The notes: generated from the letters alone by a model not told the origin. A stretch of DNA of 32,422 nt from a virus (IMGVR_UViG_3300021559_000317:1-32422), one strand, 5' to 3'. Shown: positions 13,848 to 29,571, numbered from the stretch's first letter. Numbers and translations: made by a program.

Positions 13848-15947
13848 ATGGCTGATATCCAACGTAGGCTAGATACCACACAGGAAATCTATATCAATAA
13901 ATGGTGGACGGGACTGTACAAGAACCGTTCACCGTTGTTTACACCTGTGTCTGCAATGGGTATCCAGCTTATTGCTCGTATGGATGCACTGTGGGATGGT
14001 GCGAACATAATGATTACACCACGCTACAGCTTACAGCGTAGGTATGGATTCGTGCGTTACTGTCCTTCACAAGTTATTTTAGGAGTGCCACTAACCTTCT
14101 TCAGTTATCAAGACCTCACTGGTAATGTTTATCCACTAGTAGATACGACAACTGCAGTCCAAGTCTTTACACCACTTGGTCTGACGACTCTGTTTACTAA
14201 GTCAGGTGGCGCTAGCCAAACCAGCTTCCAAGCTGTGCTCAACACTCTGTATTTCGTCAATGGAGTGGACCTACAGAAATGGACCAACGAATCTACCTTA
14301 TCTCAGATAGGTATTAACGCTCCAACTGTGGCTCCAAGTCTTTCATATAGCAACGGAGGAGTTCTACAACCAATAGTTGGGTACTCATACGGTTATTGCT
14401 TCCAGAACTCGACCACCAAGCACTTAAGCACGATGTCTCCTATTTCAGCAGACACAGGACCATTAAATAATCAAACAGTCGCTGAACACCACACCGTACC
14501 TGGTACGGGACCCTACACAATCACCGTAAACAACTCAGCCACCTTCCTTGCAGATGAGGGAGTGGTGGTAAACGCTACAAATGTCCCATTGACTGTGGTC
14601 GCTGGCTCACCAGGCAGCGGACAGTACTCAGTAACCTCTGGAGTGTACACATTCAATATTGCTCAGGCTGGCGTTCCAATGCAAATCAGTTATGCCTACG
14701 CATTGACTGGTGGCACGGGCATGAATATCACTGTTCAAGGGAGTCGTAGCGTAGATGCACAAGTAGATAAAGTTGTAATCTTCCGTACCGATGATGGAGG
14801 AGCTGAATATTTCTTTCTCTCTACTGTGAACAATCCAGGTTCTGGAGGGTGGAGTTATACCGATAACACTCCAGACTCTGGTCTAAATGACCTGGATATC
14901 GCACCCGTAGATTTTGCCAATAATCCTCCTCCAACTGGATTATCTCTGTTGACCTGGTACGCAGGTCGTTTATGGGGAGCTTCAGGCAACACGCTCTACT
15001 TTAGCGGTGGTCCAGATACCATCAATGGCGTTGGTGAGGAATCATGGCCACCTGCCAATAACTTTCCTGTCCCAGGAAGTATAACTGCTCTGGCACCGAC
15101 TTCTAATGGATTAGTGGTTTGGACCAAAGACGATGCTTATGTGGTGACTGGCAATAGTTCATCCACATTCACAGCACCCATGCTTTGGCAGCTCAACTGG
15201 GGAGTTCAAAACCAGAACTGTGTTTCTCAAGATGGAGACAATATATTTATCATCACGAGCAGAGGACAGATATTCAACTTCTCTGCTAATGGACTGAATG
15301 AAATTGGTGCCCTCAATGAATATCAGTTGGCAGCATTCAATCCTGCTAATTCTTACATCGTTGTTCATCGCAGTGGTCCAGATGAGGGAGTGTTCGTATG
15401 CGATGGCTCCGCCAATATCTATCGTTATAGTCAGGTAGCCAATGCTTGGGACACAGTGATAATACCAGCAGGAGGTTGCAAAGCTATAGCTTCTATCGAG
15501 GTAAGTCCAGCCAATTGGAAGTTGATGATGGGTCGTGCTTCTACTAATAGTTATCTACTGGCTCGTGACTTAAACACATTCACCGATGACGAAGTGACTT
15601 ATCCAGCTTGGGTAACGGTCGGCTCGATAACTGTAGCTCCTCCACGCAAAGTAGCTAATCTAGATGCAGTATTAACTCAATTCATGCCAGTTGGTACTTA
15701 TCCAACTGTCAGTGTATTGCTCAATGAAGTAGCTGACTTGGGTATATTCCCAGCTACATTTGTGGCACTACCTCATCCAGTACCAGACCCGCCACAGCTA
15801 CCACCTACTCAAACTATCTGGACAAGGAGACACGATTTCAAGGCGGCTCAGAATCCATTGTCTGGTCATGTCTCACATTTGCAAGTCAAGATACAGTTCA
15901 AATCCGAAGCACAGCAGAACGAAATATTAGGAATAGGTTTATCGTAA
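13848..15947 (+). CDS. Tubular tail protein / nozzle-like protein (beta-propeller-like)
   Basis: The 699-residue protein starts with a short helical and basic region, then long beta-rich sequence. A hallmark segment is TGLSLLTWYAGRLWGASGNTLYFSGGP (residues about 363-390), followed by ALAPTSNGLVVWTKDDAYVVTG. This G-R-L-W-x-A-x-G-x-x-L-Y-F-S pattern is typical of tubular or nozzle proteins of short-tailed phages (tail tubular B type), which form the beta-rich tail channel. The remaining propeller-like repeats show DGDNIFIITSRGQIFNFS and similar. AAGGA precedes the ATG. The stop overlaps the adhesin start (TAATG). It should sit below the connector and pass DNA during injection. Confidence 0.72.
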   Translation: MADIQRRLDTTQEIYINKWWTGLYKNRSPLFTPVSAMGIQLIARMDALWDGANIMITPRYSLQRRYGFVRYCPSQVILGVPLTFFSYQDLTGNVYPLVDTTTAVQVFTPLGLTTLFTKSGGASQTSFQAVLNTLYFVNGVDLQKWTNESTLSQIGINAPTVAPSLSYSNGGVLQPIVGYSYGYCFQNSTTKHLSTMSPISADTGPLNNQTVAEHHTVPGTGPYTITVNNSATFLADEGVVVNATNVPLTVVAGSPGSGQYSVTSGVYTFNIAQAGVPMQISYAYALTGGTGMNITVQGSRSVDAQVDKVVIFRTDDGGAEYFFLSTVNNPGSGGWSYTDNTPDSGLNDLDIAPVDFANNPPPTGLSLLTWYAGRLWGASGNTLYFSGGPDTINGVGEESWPPANNFPVPGSITALAPTSNGLVVWTKDDAYVVTGNSSSTFTAPMLWQLNWGVQNQNCVSQDGDNIFIITSRGQIFNFSANGLNEIGALNEYQLAAFNPANSYIVVHRSGPDEGVFVCDGSANIYRYSQVANAWDTVIIPAGGCKAIASIEVSPANWKLMMGRASTNSYLLARDLNTFTDDEVTYPAWVTVGSITVAPPRKVANLDAVLTQFMPVGTYPTVSVLLNEVADLGIFPATFVALPHPVPDPPQLPPTQTIWTRRHDFKAAQNPLSGHVSHLQVKIQFKSEAQQNEILGIGLS

Positions 15948-18900
15948 TGTCTAATGTTACCACTGACGATTTACAGCGATTGGCAATCACACCTCGTGGA
16001 CCTAACGAGGCACCACTCTCATTTCGTCCAGTTAGACCATTGCAGCCATTCCCTCCCGTTCATGTATCTTCACCAATCACAGCGAAGCCAGTAATAACAC
16101 CAACGCTTAAAGGTAATCCCAGTGGCAAAGGAGGAGTGCCATTCGCACTGCTCACTATCAATGTTGTACAGTCTCCGGTCAAACAACAGAGCTACACCAA
16201 TTCAGAGGTCAGTGTCTCTTATCAACGAGTGCAGCCTGACCCTAACTTCGACCACGTCAATATCTGGTTCGTTGGATATCACGGCAATACCAAGCCTCAG
16301 TTGATGACTACTGGAACGATATCACCGATATCGTTCCTATGTGACACTACTGGTGAAACAGTTACAGTGTACGCTCAGCCGTGTTCTGCATTGGGATTGG
16401 AAGCTCCACTTAGCTTTGCTAAGACTGGTACTGTCACTCTCAATGGAGTTATCGGTAGTCCTCCAGAACCAACAATAACCGAATATCTGGTAGCTACTCC
16501 CTCAGGATATGAGTTCAGTTTCTCTCAGTTGATTCTAGCTCCGGGAGATGAGGACGTAATCAGTTCTTACAAGGTCTATCGCAACACTGGCTTTACTACC
16601 AGTGGTGCCACGGTTATTCGGACATTCGTTCACGAACCAACCAATGGCGGTGCGACTATCGTAGTACAAGACGCCAAAGGTGACGGTGTCACTTATTACT
16701 ACTGGGTATCCGCAGTCAACACGAAAGGACTAGAGTCTGCTCTAGAGCCAGCCGAAATAGGAGCCATCGTACCTAGCCCTCCACCAATCGGTCAAGGAGC
16801 GATGGTCGTTAGTCAAACGATAGAAGTAGGAAATGCTGTTACCAACGGCTCACCTCTGACCAGCTATATACAAGGCAATACAGTAAACACCCAAGGAACA
16901 ATCGAGTTTGACATTCTAGCTATACCAGTAGGAATCATTGATGTCCTAATGTACGCCAGCACTACCAGCGGCTTGCCCAATGGATACGTATTTCGCTTTG
17001 ATGCAAGGTCTGGATTCGCCCCTGGCCAAATTTTGAGGTTAGATAGTGGGATTTATACAACCATTGGAACTTTGACTGGCTTTGTAAGTGGCACTACTTT
17101 AAGTGGCTGGCACCACATTGGTTGCCGTATTAGCGGTCATCAATATGACATTTTTGTGGATGGAACTTGGATGTATACAGCCACGGATGCTACCTATACC
17201 CCAACTGGAGCGACCTACTTTGGCTGTCAACTTTTGACTGGCTTAAAGCTGGCCCCTTCGGCCTTAGTCCAAAAGACAATGGATGACTTCGTTGATGGTC
17301 AAGATTATGCCAGAGTCTGTGCAGGTCATCAATTTGCCGTTGGTGCTGGCAATATGGGGAAGGTCGCTGCAGCCGCTACGCTTGACACTTCCATCGACTA
17401 CACCTCAGCTTCTTATGGATTCGGCAATCCCGCACCCGCTGGAGTTGCCCTTACTAACTTTTACGCTCGCTGGGTTGGTTATTTAGTTCCCAGCATTACT
17501 GGTACTTACACCATAGGGGTAAACTCCGATGATGGAGCCAACCTATATGTGGATGGCGTGCCTATCGTTGTAAATCTGACAGGCAATCAGGCTGCTTTTA
17601 CTAGCCTCAATTACACTCAATCAAAGACTATTCATCTAGCTGCTGGAGTGTATCATCCAATCATTGTTGAGTGGCAGAATAACACAGGGCCATACTGTCT
17701 ACAACTTCTTTGGACACCACCAAATTTAAGTACCCAACTCATTGGAACTGCCAATCTTAGTATCTCAAGTACTTCTATAACAGGTGCTCTCGCAAGCGAT
17801 TGGTGGAACGGTACGCCTAATCTCTGGTATCCAACAGGTGGTCACTATATTGATTTCGCAGACGTACATGTAAACAAGATTCTAGATAATGTTAACGATG
17901 GCACCTATTACATAAAGGGTGCTGCCATGGTAGTTGGCGAAGGAATGGTCCAAAACGGCAACTTCGCTTTAGGTAATCTTACAGGCTGGCAATTAGGCGG
18001 TGGTGGATTTAACCCGAACATTATTACATATATAGAAAACAGTAATCCTCCGTATTCTGGAGCAGGAAATTATGTCCATATCGCTTCTGGAGTGCTATGG
18101 GGAGGCATATCTTCAACTCATAAGTCTGCTTGTGTACCAGGAGAAGCTTATAAGGTAGCTGGGTGGGCTTACGCTGGGACCGTCAGCAACGGTGCAGGTA
18201 TCGTTGCAAACTTCTGGAACTCCGCTGGGGCAGCAATAGGAAACGTATCAGCACTCACGACAGGAACGGGTTCATGGCAATATCTTACTGGCGTAGCTAC
18301 AGCTCCAGCAGGAACTGCCTACATGACTTTTGGTGTAGGGAACAATGATTCCTCATATTCCGATGCCTACTTTACGGGAGTTAATTGTTGGAAAATACGC
18401 TCGCTTGATGACGAAGTTAAAGATGGTTCTACTTACATTCGTCCAGGTTGGGTGAATGGCAATCATCTTTTGGGTAGTAGAGGAACATCACCATTGTGTG
18501 CCTCGTGGTCAACCACAGCCACTGGCAACATTCTAACTCAATCAGGTACTTCTTCTACTATCAATGTAGCAGCATTTGTTATTCAATACGGATTCGGTCA
18601 AGTTTCATATAGCAGTGGTACTTGTACAGCACCGACTAACACCTCTACAGGGGTAGTGTATTTCACTGACCCAACCTATTCAGGTGGAGCGATGGTGTTC
18701 CACTTCACAACTGCAGCTTACAACGCAAATGCCAATGATGCTGATATTCCATTGGGAGTAATTACGCTTTCATCCGGCGGCGGCGGCGGTGGCGGCGGTG
18801 GTGGTGGGGGTATCGGATGCTTTAGCCCTACTACTAAAGTAGTAACACCTAATGGGAACGTTCCATTCAAAGACCTTCGCATAGGAGACAAGGTACTAAC

Positions 18901-19189
18901 TGCTAAAGGCACTTGGCGTGAGATATTCGGTATCCAGTCTAGAGATTTTACTGGTCCAATGCTCGATATGGGAGACTCTGAAGCAGTAACTCTTGGACAT
19001 GGCATTTTGCATCAAGGCATGTGGATAGATGCGATTCATCTTAATACGTTTCCAGAGATACCTTACTCAGGAAAGGTAATGAACCTACTCATTAAGATAT
19101 CTGGCGACGATGATGGACTTTCTTCACAGACAGAACATAGCTACACATTGTCAAACGGACTGATAGCTCACAATTATTATGGTACTTAA
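15947..19189 (+). CDS. Multidomain tail adhesin (Fn3, lectin-like, PA14, CBM-like) with C-terminal Hint domain
   Basis: The 1,080-residue protein is a modular surface adhesin. Residues about 60-280 hold two beta-sandwich (fibronectin III-like) domains (ISSYKVYRNTG, YYYWVSAVNTKGLES). About 300-440 resembles a concanavalin/LamG-type domain (GWHHIGCRISGHQYDIFVDG). About 464-601 is a PA14-type domain (ARWVGYLVPSITGTYTIGV, SDDGANLYVDG). About 666-822 is a carbohydrate-binding jelly roll (NGNFALGNLTGWQLGGG, PGEAYKVAGWAYAG). A 12-glycine tract (944-955) leads into an intein-like Hint domain (958-1076), annotated separately. PA14 and CBM-like parts bind sugars, so it probably contacts the host surface. 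It follows the tubular tail gene with overlap. It may be self-cleaved at the C-terminus. Confidence 0.8.
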   Translation: MSNVTTDDLQRLAITPRGPNEAPLSFRPVRPLQPFPPVHVSSPITAKPVITPTLKGNPSGKGGVPFALLTINVVQSPVKQQSYTNSEVSVSYQRVQPDPNFDHVNIWFVGYHGNTKPQLMTTGTISPISFLCDTTGETVTVYAQPCSALGLEAPLSFAKTGTVTLNGVIGSPPEPTITEYLVATPSGYEFSFSQLILAPGDEDVISSYKVYRNTGFTTSGATVIRTFVHEPTNGGATIVVQDAKGDGVTYYYWVSAVNTKGLESALEPAEIGAIVPSPPPIGQGAMVVSQTIEVGNAVTNGSPLTSYIQGNTVNTQGTIEFDILAIPVGIIDVLMYASTTSGLPNGYVFRFDARSGFAPGQILRLDSGIYTTIGTLTGFVSGTTLSGWHHIGCRISGHQYDIFVDGTWMYTATDATYTPTGATYFGCQLLTGLKLAPSALVQKTMDDFVDGQDYARVCAGHQFAVGAGNMGKVAAAATLDTSIDYTSASYGFGNPAPAGVALTNFYARWVGYLVPSITGTYTIGVNSDDGANLYVDGVPIVVNLTGNQAAFTSLNYTQSKTIHLAAGVYHPIIVEWQNNTGPYCLQLLWTPPNLSTQLIGTANLSISSTSITGALASDWWNGTPNLWYPTGGHYIDFADVHVNKILDNVNDGTYYIKGAAMVVGEGMVQNGNFALGNLTGWQLGGGGFNPNIITYIENSNPPYSGAGNYVHIASGVLWGGISSTHKSACVPGEAYKVAGWAYAGTVSNGAGIVANFWNSAGAAIGNVSALTTGTGSWQYLTGVATAPAGTAYMTFGVGNNDSSYSDAYFTGVNCWKIRSLDDEVKDGSTYIRPGWVNGNHLLGSRGTSPLCASWSTTATGNILTQSGTSSTINVAAFVIQYGFGQVSYSSGTCTAPTNTSTGVVYFTDPTYSGGAMVFHFTTAAYNANANDADIPLGVITLSSGGGGGGGGGGGGIGCFSPTTKVVTPNGNVPFKDLRIGDKVLTAKGTWREIFGIQSRDFTGPMLDMGDSEAVTLGHGILHQGMWIDAIHLNTFPEIPYSGKVMNLLIKISGDDDGLSSQTEHSYTLSNGLIAHNYYGT
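16313..16337. repeat. Perfect 11-base inverted repeat inside adhesin gene
   Basis: GGAACGATATC (16313-16323) and GATATCGTTCC (16327-16337) are perfect reverse complements separated by ACC. In RNA this forms a tight stem-loop within the coding region, between the two Fn3-like domains. No T-run follows, so it is not a simple terminator. Origin and role are unknown. Confidence 0.75.
18776..18811 (+). repeat. 12-glycine codon tract
   Basis: Twelve consecutive Gly codons, mostly GGC and GGT, encode residues 944-955 of the adhesin, right before the Hint domain. It is a flexible linker and a likely slippage site. Its GC content is far above that of the neighbouring sequence. Confidence 0.9.
18818..19189 (+). 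other. Hint (intein-like) autoprocessing domain within the adhesin
   Basis: Residues 958-1076 of the adhesin match a compact Hint module without a homing-endonuclease insert. Block A begins at Cys958 (CFSPTTKVVTPNG, then FKDLRIGDKVLTAKG). Block B is VTLGHGILHQ, with the T-x-x-H pattern. The last strand is TEHSYTLSNGLIAHN, ending with the His1075-Asn1076 pair needed for Asn cyclisation. Only YYGT follows, with Tyr rather than Cys, Ser or Thr at +1. This argues against true splicing and for N- and/or C-terminal cleavage, as described for bacterial intein-like (BIL) domains. The motif is seen directly; the reaction is inferred. Confidence 0.85.
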
Positions 19190-19202: not shown

Positions 19203-19457
19203 ATGGAACATAAACTAAAGGCAATTGAACATAGAGAACTGAATGATGACCAGGTAAGTGTACTTTACCGCTGTTGCGATGACCCGACTACAGATTCGTG
19301 GTGCACTGTTCACTTGTCCTTGTCTGCAACTGAGATAGAAGCAGTATTTGAACACCACAAAGGAAAGATAGCATTACAACACGAGAATAAGCTCCGGTTC
19401 CGTGCTGGTAGTCATCCTGTGAATCAACACACAGGAGACAGCACACTCATACTATAA
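19203..19457 (+). CDS. Hypothetical protein (84 aa)
   Basis: The 84-residue protein begins MEHKLKAIEHRELNDDQVSV, with AAAGGA upstream. It has two Cys pairs or singles (RCCDDP, WCTVH) and a helical centre (SATEIEAVFEHHKGK). No membrane segment or clear domain. It follows the adhesin after 13 bases and precedes the 155-residue gene. A chaperone or maturation factor for the adhesin is possible by position but unsupported by motif. Unknown. Confidence 0.6.
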   Translation: MEHKLKAIEHRELNDDQVSVLYRCCDDPTTDSWCTVHLSLSATEIEAVFEHHKGKIALQHENKLRFRAGSHPVNQHTGDSTLIL

Positions 19458-24706: not shown

Positions 24707-27271
24707 ATGGCAACAGGTGCAATTTTAGCTGGTAATATCCAGAACCTTATAGGGACCGCTGATGCGGCTACTATCAACATTACCCTAGTCAACTATGGTA
24801 GTGTCGCACCTTATACTGCCGATGGTCTGCTCGCCAACATTGTACAGACGATTACTGCAGACGTTACTGGCGTTTATTCACAGGCAATATATGCGACTGA
24901 ACAAATAGTACCTGCTGGTACTTACTACACTTTCGAGATATTGGATGCCAATGGAGATTTCATCCAGTGCTTTGGAGCTACAATTCCAACTGGTACGAGT
25001 GCCCTTGAGGAGTTGCTCCAGATTAATGCCACCAATTCACCATATTACAATCCTCTTGTAGGTCCAACAGGACCTGCTGGACCTGCTGGAGGACCAACTG
25101 GACCAACCGGATACACTGGTGCTGGAGTTGCTGGCTCTGCAGGTGCAACTGGACCAACAGGTTATACAGGACCTGCAGGTAGTGCTGGGTCATCTGGCTC
25201 CATAGGAGCCACTGGGTACACAGGTTACACTGGTCCTGCAGGTAGCAATGGAACTATCGGAGCGACTGGCTACACTGGATATACAGGCTATACAGGTAGA
25301 ACCGGACCCACAGGTTATACGGGGTACACGGGACCAGGCAATTTCACAGGGTATACGGGACCTCAAGGACCTACAGGACCTACGGGATATACTGGTGCGG
25401 GTAATTTTACTGGCTACACCGGATATACTGGTGCGGGCTCAACAGGATACACAGGGTACACAGGTCCTGGCAACTTCACAGGATACACTGGTCCCGTTGG
25501 AGCAACAGGATATACAGGTTACACAGGAACTCAAGGAACTGCTGGAGCAGCGGGAGCTACAGGTCCTACAGGATACACTGGTCCTGGTAATTTTACGGGA
25601 TACACAGGTTATACGGGTTCAATTGGACCGACTGGACCGACTGGATACACTGGCCCCATAGGAACTACGGGATATACGGGATACAGTGGGTTTACTGGTT
25701 ATACTGGTCCAGGCAATTTTACCGGATACACCGGATACACTGGCACTACAGGTTACACTGGTCCTACTGGCTACACAGGTTACACCGGACCAATAGGTTC
25801 AACAGGATATACAGGATATACGGGTCCTGGCAACTTTACTGGGTATACAGGTTATACGGGATATACAGGTGCTGGTTACTTGGCTACTTCTGCGAGTACA
25901 CTAACTCCCTCCCTTGCACCGAAGTCTTTTACTACCCAAGCTGGATTAGCTTACTTAGCTGGAGATAGAGTCAGAGCTACTAGTAGAGGCACTCCTACTG
26001 AATATATGGAAGGAGTGGCCAGTTCATACTCCTCAACTACCCTCGTTGTCACTATAGATGTCTTCAATGGAGGAAGCTCACTATCAGACTGGAATTTGGG
26101 TCTGGCTGGCAATCCAGGAGTAACTGGGTATACAGGCTATACAGGTTTTACTGGTTCTACTGGACCGACGGGCTACACTGGACCTGGCAACTTCACTGGA
26201 TATACAGGTTACACTGGATATACCGGACCAATTGGTAGCACTGGTCCAACGGGATATACCGGATATACAGGACCCGGAAACTTCACAGGTTATACTGGAT
26301 ATACAGGAACTACTGGTCCAACTGGATTTACTGGCTATACAGGTCCAGGTAACTTTACAGGGTACACTGGCTACACCGGATATACTGGACCAACTGGCTA
26401 TACAGGACCTGTCGCACCAGCGAATTATTCTCAATCATTCACTAACCAAACTACTGTTTCAGTCGCTAGTCTTTCTCATAAGTTTAATACTAGTGCGCTG
26501 ATTGTAACCTGCTACGACACGGCTAGTCCTGCAAATCAGATTCAACCAGCAACTGTTACGATAGACGGCTCTAGCTTCGCTGTTGTTGTAACGTTCTTCT
26601 CGTCCCAATCTGGTTATATCGTTATCAACGGTGCAGGCTCAGCAGGTGCTACAGGCTACACAGGATACACGGGACCTGGAGTGGGGGCCACAGGACCAAC
26701 TGGATATACAGGACCTGGTAACTTCACTGGGTACACAGGATACACAGGACCAATAGGTCCTACGGGTCCTACAGGACCAACTGGCTATACAGGGTATACG
26801 GGATACTCAGGCTTCACTGGTTACACCGGACCTAATGACGGAGTAACTCAAGTCAACAGCAAAACAATGCAGTTGGCGGGTAGCTGGGGTATCGCTTGGG
26901 CACAATATAGCTTCGCTCTTGATGGTGGAGTTGTTAGCACTATCACACCACCATCTGCTAGAAATACAACAATACCAGCCAATGCAATTCTCACAGCGGG
27001 TATGGTTAATGTCACAACTGCTGTCACCTCCAGTGGAACCACAGGCGTATCCATTGGTGTAGCAGGTACTGGCGGTGGAGTGGCAACATTACTTGCCTCG
27101 ACAGTCAAGGGCTCATTAACCTTGGATGCCTTATTGCCTACCGTTACTTCATTCACTGCTGGAAAGAAATTGACAGGTGCGGGTGGCATTACCTTTACGA
27201 TTATTACTAATGCTCTTACCGCTGGAGTGATAGAAGTGTGGGTTGAGTATTATCTATCCGCTGCCGCGTAA
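24707..27271 (+). CDS. Long collagen-like tail fibre protein
   Basis: The 854-residue protein is a probable trimeric fibre. Residues 1 to about 118 form an N-terminal head domain ([26 protein letters not shown]) of a type seen in tail fibres, probably the attachment end. Collagen-like G-x-T repeats fill about 119-388, 468-568 and 647-708, dominated by GYT, GPT and PGN-FT units. Two globular inserts lie between (389-467, 569-646), and a C-terminal beta domain (709-854) likely trimerises or binds the receptor. The repeat uses mainly Tyr and Thr rather than Pro and hydroxyproline. About ten NFT triplets replace Gly at regular places without shifting register. The ATG is preceded by AAGGA and follows the previous stop directly. 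Confidence 0.88.
25061..25875 (+). repeat. Collagen-like repeat block 1
   Basis: In-frame Gly-x-Thr repeats (GYT, GPT, GAT and PGN-FT interruptions) encode residues about 119-388 of the long fibre. Glycine and threonine codons vary freely, so the repeat is strong in protein but degenerate in DNA. Confidence 0.92.
26108..26410 (+). repeat. Collagen-like repeat block 2
   Basis: In-frame Gly-x-Thr repeats encode residues about 468-568 of the long fibre, with three GNFT interruptions. Confidence 0.9.
26645..26830 (+). repeat. Collagen-like repeat block 3
   Basis: In-frame Gly-x-Thr repeats encode residues about 647-708 of the long fibre, just before the C-terminal domain, with one GNFT interruption. 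Confidence 0.9.
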
Positions 27272-28416: not shown

Positions 28417-29571
28417 ATGGGTACTTATACACCACGATTACAATTATACAAACCATCTGCTGGTGAATATGGTTGGCAAGACCTAGTTAACCACAATTGG
28501 GATGTCCTCGACACCTCTAGCACTGGAGGTGGCAGTGGTGGCTCGGGTTCCACAGGACCAACTGGATACACAGGTTACACAGGTCCGATGGGATTTACCG
28601 GATATACGGGTTACACAGGCTACACAGGTCCAGGTAATTTCACTGGGTACACTGGATATACTGGCCCGACAGGATTCACTGGCGACACAGGTTACACGGG
28701 ACCAGGTAACTTCACAGGTTATACAGGCTACACTGGATTCACTGGACCAGGAAATTTCACTGGTTACACCGGACCCACAGGATACACCGGACCTACTGGT
28801 TTCACTGGGTACACAGGCTACACTGGTCCTGGTAGCTTTACTGGTTACACAGGGTATACAGGACCAGGCAACTTTACAGGATACACAGGTTATACCGGAC
28901 CCACAGGTCCGTCTGGTTACACTGGATACACGGGTCCAGGTAACTTCACAGGATATACCGGACCTACTGGATTTACGGGTCCTGCTGGTACTGCCTCTGC
29001 CACTGGAGCTACTGGTTATACAGGCTACACAGGATACACAGGTCTGGGAGCCACAGGATATACAGGACCAGGAAACTTCACTGGATATACGGGATACACA
29101 GGATACACGGGTGGTCTTGGAACCACAGGAGCTACTGGCTTCACAGGACCTGGTAACTTTACTGGGTACACTGGACCCACTGGATTCACTGGGTACACTG
29201 GAGCTCAAGGAGCGACAGGAGCAACTGGACCCACTGGACCAGGGAACTTCACTGGATACACAGGCTTCACTGGATACTCAGGATTTCAAGGAACCACTGG
29301 TCCAACTGGATTCACCGGATATACAGGCTCCAGTGCTGCTGGATTCAACTTCCTGGATAATGGAACTCCTACAGGAGCTGTCAACGGAGTCAATGCTGTA
29401 TTCACTTTGTCCTATGCACCTAATCCTGCTGCTAGCTTGATGCTGTTCGTGAATGGGGTATTACAAGACCCCAATGGAAACGATTACACTCTTTCCTCTA
29501 CGACCGTAACATTTACTGCAGGGTCTATCCCTCAATCTGGAGCTAATCTCCAGACGTATTTCAGACACTAA
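28417..29571 (+). CDS. Short collagen-like tail fibre protein
   Basis: The 384-residue protein begins with a short N-terminal region ([32 protein letters not shown]), a conserved anchor type in phage fibres, then a Gly/Ser linker. Collagen-like repeats fill about 44-304 and are dominated by GYT, GFT and GPT with about eight GNFT interruptions. The C-terminal domain (about 308-384) reads [26 protein letters not shown] ... LFVNGVLQ, a phage fibre tip type. It is a second, shorter relative of the long fibre, and the two share the [10 protein letters not shown] unit, suggesting duplication or gene exchange. AAAGG precedes the ATG. It may cap, pair with or compete with the long fibre. Confidence 0.87.
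28546..29331 (+). repeat. Collagen-like repeat block of the short fibre
   Basis: In-frame Gly-x-Thr repeats encode residues about 44-304. The repeat unit [10 protein letters not shown] recurs about eight times. Codon choice varies between copies, as in the long fibre. Confidence 0.92.

Follow-up and report, generated by a model that had tools for sequence, protein, structure and literature searches.

Why the tail protein of a virus should end in a domain that resembles an intein, with four residues left between the last catalytic position and the stop codon, is the question raised by the locus described here. It lies in a 32.4-kb virus record (IMGVR_UViG_3300021559_000317), all 32,422 nucleotides of which were analysed and are called the window below, where one ORF encodes 1080 amino acids (15947-19189; Table 1). 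An initial annotation, made from the sequence alone, had read the product as a tail adhesin with a C-terminal, intein-like Hint domain behind a glycine tract, and had regarded splicing as unlikely and self-cleavage as plausible.

The carrier protein and its genomic context

Position and domains give good support to the view that the 1080-aa protein (113.4 kDa, computed) is a receptor-binding tail protein. Genes for a terminase, an SU10-type portal, a major head protein, an SU10-type adaptor and a nozzle-like protein, the last matching internal virion and head-closure families, lie 5' of it, and this gene order is also that of the viral contigs L129, L143, L149 and L154. Tail proteins of these four contigs resemble the window protein in their N-terminal part (39-52%) and diverge from it in the middle; the segment conserved among such orthologues of the same podovirus type is, judged by alignment, probably the part that attaches to the virion. 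The PA14 domain likely binds a glycan or receptor, and the neighbourhood of this domain is common to otherwise different tail proteins. The designation as a tail adhesin is thus well supported by the adaptor and nozzle-like context, the conserved N-terminus, PA14 and the variable middle. Neither a frameshift nor an assembly error is likely here, since a second contig (IMGVR_UViG_3300021180_000435) encodes the same protein among the same neighbours, with no difference. The annotated Tunturiibacter phage Tunturi_3 has a major head protein and a nozzle-like protein distantly related to those of the window, and its whole record gave no Hint match; going by this remote kinship alone, Acidobacteriota would be a first guess for the hosts of the module.

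Further genes of the window include one for a histidine-phosphatase-family protein (PF00300; 13010-13663) between the adaptor and nozzle-like genes, and two collagen-like tail-fibre genes (24707-27271 and 28417-29571) downstream of the Hint gene. Near the record start, a 498-aa protein (564-2060) has two glycosyltransferase matches (Glycos_transf_2, Galactosyl_T); its homologue lies upstream of the L143 tail genes.

Sequence and predicted fold of the C-terminal domain

The C-terminus reads ...ITLSS-GGGGGGGGGGGG-IG-C958FSPTTKVVTPNG...T1015LGH1018...TEHSYTLSNGLIAH1075N1076-YYGT-stop. Codons 944-955 all specify Gly, as the initial annotation had it; the run is written with mixed codons (GGC, GGT and GGG) and is therefore not a simple triplet expansion. 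The tract had been placed just before Cys958, which is right as to the tract and wrong as to immediate adjacency, because Ile956-Gly957 intervene. Reading of the codons also confirmed that Cys958, a T-x-x-H motif and a terminal His-Asn pair follow one another in the predicted order, T1015-H1018 (TLGH) being the sole T-x-x-H within the domain, and that nothing but YYGT, with Tyr at +1, comes after Asn1076.

Pfam Hint_2 matched with 35.3 bits against a curated cut-off of 28.4, which, with the catalytic residues in place, agrees with the proposed Hint identity; weaker matches to Vint, Hint and Hom_end_hint covered the same stretch, Vint lying near its cut-off and spanning the full domain length. 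An AlphaFold2 model built on a 19-sequence alignment reached a pLDDT of 90.2 and a pTM of 0.83, with low confidence confined to the glycine tract and the final residues. The best PDB matches in Foldseek, all at probability 1.00, were Vint (8r2c; TM 0.68 by query), BIL2 (6y75), the gp41-1 intein (6qaz) and the Clostridium BIL (CthBIL, 2lwy), the last scoring slightly lower than the others. Comparison of a model with Hint structures had been set beforehand as a check, and the predicted fold was indeed obtained (pLDDT 90, with these Foldseek matches); the modelling thus supports a Hint (horseshoe, all-beta) fold for the C-terminus of the window protein. When the family profile was compared with PDB sequences, 2lwy came first (2e-6) and the gp41-1 intein next (2.7e-6); the similarity to CthBIL, by which the putative A-type assignment was judged at the sequence level, is about equal to that to the gp41-1 intein.

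Table 1. Features of the Hint-bearing tail protein gene and the gene behind it (window coordinates)
Feature	Position	Strand	Basis or remark
Tail protein (1080 aa) ending in a Hint domain	15947..19189	+	ORF; position 3' of SU10-type adaptor and nozzle-like gene
N-terminal region, aa 26-275	16022..16771	+	43-51% identity to L127/L143 and L149; alignment
PA14 domain, aa 487-596	17405..17734	+	Pfam PA14, 74.9 bits (cut-off 24)
12-glycine tract, aa 944-955, then Ile956-Gly957	18776..18811	+	codons read
Hint domain, aa 958-1076 (119 aa), A-type BIL-like	18818..19174	+	Pfam Hint_2, AF2, Foldseek, profile vs PDB
Cys958 (Cys1), block A nucleophile	18818..18820	+	invariant in 19/19 sequences
T1015-L-G-H1018, block B TxxH	18989..19000	+	T and H invariant in 19/19 sequences
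His1075-Asn1076, block G	19169..19174	+	Asn invariant; His in 14/16 family members
Four-residue C-terminal flank YYGT (+1 Tyr)	19175..19186	+	then TAA
84-aa ORF	19203..19457	+	starts 13 nt past Hint-gene stop; homologues at same place in L139, L141

Recurrence in tail proteins of different viruses

Relatives were sought with two patterns from inside the Hint domain (V[LP]TA[KR]GTW and TE[HR]SY[TR]L) and were therefore not selected for glycine. This search gave 14 loci, which came to 11 complete cases after duplicates and near-identical sequences had been merged and one truncated contig left out, the window's twin being counted. The Hint domain occupied the extreme C-terminus in all 11, and 10 had a Gly-rich linker. 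Nine of these ten linkers were measured and held 40-75% Gly over the 20 residues preceding Hint, compared with 8-12% in the remainder of the protein; that of L148, the tenth, reads GGGGGIGGGGQGG. The single exception, L142, has two tandem Hint domains. At that place (L142:7653-8372, the same place as L124, on a 463-kb contig) the two domains are joined by KAAV at one C-terminus. A second subgroup, found by a search without glycine patterns, is C-terminal too, and runs of at least 4 glycines precede Hint in its new members.

Comparison of all neighbouring ORFs, which covers most carriers, placed them on three virus backbones: SU10-like podoviruses (the window, L129, L143, L149 and L154), siphovirus-like viruses with Phage-tail_3/Rcc01698-like tail proteins (L134, on which Pfam was run for the assignment, L139, L140, L141, L144, L148 and L150), and L131/L142. 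The Hint module is therefore common to different tails; some carriers have it within the tail tip protein, and others (L144, L150) on a separate gene behind the tail tip gene.

At E 1e-5, a collection of 50,697 phage records contained no relative of the window Hint domain, nor of the domains of two relatives; the weak matches at E 0.1-10 fell for the most part in proteins such as portal and tape-measure proteins. Bacterial and archaeal genomes (84,980) were scanned twice and likewise yielded no relative. That phage proteins can contain Hint domains is already known, and databases annotate them as such. The open PMC literature, as far as searched, gave inteins in phage TerL and RNR and no Hint domain at the end of tail proteins, and likewise no account of a conserved C-terminal module of glycine linker and A-type-BIL-like domain in tail proteins of several phage types.

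Glycine and Hint are also combined elsewhere in phage tails. L007, L008 and L013, like dozens of further viral contigs, encode a lambda J-like central tail fibre with a Gly-tract and Hint domain about 20 residues from the N-terminus, the Hint ending in HN-Ala and being followed by a second Gly-rich stretch and then the J domains; these were found with a glycine pattern, which biases their frequency, and PHROG 31 and FNIII-A_GpJ were tested for L007. L029 and L009 encode a tail-assembly-protein homologue (PHROG 32, tested for L029) with an internal Gly-flanked Hint after about 120 residues. With its C-terminal Gly-Hint, which ends in HN-SKD, a 2580-residue J-like tail protein (L067:262-8001) shows the architecture of the window protein in a separate case.

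Conservation of the catalytic residues

Down to 23% identity, the 19-sequence alignment retained only 4 invariant columns, namely Cys1, Thr and His of the TxxH motif and the Asn that closes the domain, all within 5 residues named beforehand (p about 5e-7, with positions taken as interchangeable and shared ancestry ignored). Among the 16 family members, C958, T1015, H1018, W1026, L1068, G1071 and N1076 are invariant; in L149 and L150 the penultimate His is Ser or Thr. The Hint domain of the close pair L170/L171 is under purifying selection, given a dN of 0.10 and a dS of 0.79 (dN/dS about 0.13), and amino-acid identity between the two is 84% in this domain versus 58% in most of the protein. The L154 protein, an orthologue of the window protein, was found by profile (13.8 bits, with a best-domain E of 6e-5 in a small set); it keeps the Gly-rich linker, the Cys and HN and has, by eye, SPTEP at the TxxH site, so it appears to have lost the block-B His. 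With L149 and L150 lacking the penultimate His as well, some members may therefore be inactive or act differently, and the module can decay or change.

These losses of catalytic positions in L154, L149 and L150 fit a reading in which the Hint fold stays unprocessed and serves as a knob or receptor-binding tip at the C-terminus, or represents a decayed intein, and loss of activity is possible in inteins and BILs. Against such an inert cap, Cys1, TxxH and Asn are among the most conserved positions while the remainder diverges to 23-26% identity; moreover, a selfish intein would be unexpected at the very end of a variable protein, and a domain of 119 residues is too short to include an endonuclease. 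We consider an inert cap unlikely, if still worth serious attention.

Proposed self-removal from the tail protein

On the strength of sequence and model, we propose that the A-type BIL-like domain, once folded, detaches itself from the tail protein by cleavage and leaves a Gly-rich C-terminus, a reading to which we assign a probability of roughly 0.55. In Hint chemistry, the block A Cys forms a thioester with the preceding residue, and the terminal Asn cyclises. Applied to the window protein, the domain would first fold as the modelled horseshoe; Cys958, assisted by TxxH, would then attack the Gly957-Cys958 bond, giving a thioester where the glycine tract ends, as the invariant residues suggest; Asn1076, with His1075, would cyclise and release YYGT; and the thioester would mostly hydrolyse, giving a free domain of about 13 kDa and a tail protein of about 100 kDa ending in ...GGGGIG. 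Hydrolysis is expected to prevail over transfer because no Cys, Ser or Thr follows Asn1076, and since there is no +1 nucleophile, no branched intermediate would form. Calculated average masses are 113,377.5 Da for the precursor, 99,911.4 Da for residues 1-957, 100,395.9 Da for a spliced product of 1-957 plus YYGT, 12,999.6 Da for the free domain (12,981.6 Da as succinimide) and 502.5 Da for YYGT.

Behind the terminal Asn, each of the 18 tabulated proteins continues for three to seven residues; one of these proteins (L134, Ser) has Cys, Ser or Thr at +1. Cyclisation of Asn cleaves nothing where no residue follows, so the retained tail argues for C-terminal cleavage, which is probably used, as the Asn and the short tail are both kept. 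Hedgehog undergoes N-terminal cleavage only. BILs without a +1 nucleophile mainly cleave and sometimes splice by aminolysis (PMC4031507, PMC7664689). A Magnetospirillum magnetotacticum intein-like element shares Tyr at +1 with the window domain, the residue on which the two were compared, and according to a review it spliced only once the Tyr had been changed to Cys (PMC4031507). It is from this behaviour that self-removal with a Gly-rich C-terminus would be expected.

The same behaviour bears on splicing, in which Asn1076 would free YYGT, the amino end of YYGT would attack the thioester, and the mature end would become ...GGGGIG-YYGT. Aminolysis is possible in A-type BILs without a +1 nucleophile (PMC4031507), and the near-N-terminal Hint domain between two Gly-rich stretches of the lambda J-like proteins is compatible with splicing; against this stand the failure of the Tyr+1 BIL to splice until its Tyr was replaced and a flank, YYGT, that is tiny and not conserved among relatives. 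We therefore find it reasonable that splicing had been called unlikely from the start, and allow it only a slender chance. A mobile splicing intein was ruled out by the +1 Tyr, the 4-residue C-flank and the want of a second extein.

A pretoxin-type HINT releasing a C-terminal toxin would be another use of this fold. PT-HINT is a related Pfam family matched by some of the other Gly-Hint phage proteins, but the window domain has no PT-HINT match at E 0.1 and is followed by only 4 residues, as relatives are by 3-7; this reading is barely credible. The candidate was ruled out, there being nothing but a tetrapeptide after the domain to release.

Self-removal would constitute a C-terminal maturation of the receptor-binding tail protein, in which the domain acts while attached and leaves after assembly; by analogy with the logic of the S74 domain, it may perhaps have a chaperone-like role. 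The Hint_2 match, the AlphaFold2 and Foldseek results, the invariant residues, the glycine-blind recurrence, the purifying selection and the three backbones count in favour of self-removal, whereas the catalytic losses in L154 and L149/L150 count against it, and the conservation of the fold could be non-catalytic.

The small gene behind the Hint gene

Nearly all relatives have a small ORF that starts within about 20 nt of the Hint-gene stop. Its products fall into one family of about 96-116 aa (L143, L144, L146, L148, L129, L140, L138 and L154; BLAST E 1e-22 to 7e-3) and a second of 76-84 aa (the window, L139 and L141; E 4e-9 or better). Neither Pfam nor PHROG offered a convincing family for the small proteins, and a confident model of the first family gave no significant match in the PDB. 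A search seeded with the small protein returned only loci already known, all with Hint. The first family occurs on podovirus and siphovirus backbones and may therefore travel with the Hint module, and the 84-aa product could be a partner of that module. In L149 and L152, the ORF directly behind the Hint gene resembles, by eye, a JAB/MPN-type metallopeptidase (GIFHTHDRYHQSDPSEAD).

A further reading is ligation, in which an amine of a second tail subunit, of the small downstream protein or of a host molecule would attack the Gly thioester and be joined covalently. In Tetrahymena BUBL1, BIL2 (6y75, 6tmm), which is among the best structural matches of the window domain and likewise stands behind an N-terminal partner, passes that partner to an amine, joining a ubiquitin-like C-terminus to lysine side chains without ATP (PMC8616854). 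BUBL1 differs in being a eukaryotic polyubiquitin-like locus that is Zn-activated and has a full domain after the BIL. The small gene directly behind nearly every Hint gene is suggestive as well; yet its product is not one family across members and is a candidate acceptor only, and an exposed Gly thioester would more simply be hydrolysed. We hold ligation to be quite unlikely. Its stronger form, in which Hint is a built-in transpeptidase carrying the Gly tract from the thioester to an amine of another virion subunit or of the target cell and so linking the tail tip covalently by its glycine end, with the small protein perhaps as acceptor or chaperone, seems improbable to us.

Relation to known systems and implications

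For self-removal, the nearest precedent is the A-type BIL, such as that of Clostridium thermocellum (2lwy, the best PDB profile match), with which the window domain shares the Hint fold, an N-terminal Cys, TxxH, a C-terminal His-Asn, the lack of a +1 nucleophile and a variable host protein. It differs in lying at the extreme end of a tail protein, behind a glycine tract and with 3-7 residues following, and in its length of 119 residues compared with 130-155 for BILs (PMC9185962); length being descriptive and not catalytic, this lowers strict BIL membership and not BIL-like working. Inteins in phage genes (TerL, RNR; gp41-1) have the same fold and catalytic blocks, but are inserted in conserved enzymes between two real exteins (phiCbK TerL and RNR, PMC3556154). 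The Peptidase S74/intramolecular chaperone resembles the proposed module in being a domain that removes itself from the C-terminus of phage tail fibres and spikes (PMC7824862, PMC11058221), whereas its chemistry is Ser-Lys and trimer-dependent and its fold unlike Hint; the window protein had no S74 match in Pfam at E 0.1.

Small natural Hint domains that act behind a glycine linker could serve as tools for cleavage or ligation. What A-type BILs do biologically is unsettled, and a virion protein with a mature end that can be read by mass spectrometry would offer a direct test case. If self-removal is true, it would represent a second, chemically different C-terminal self-maturation of phage receptor-binding proteins besides S74, and such maturation would have spread between podovirus-type and siphovirus-type tails.
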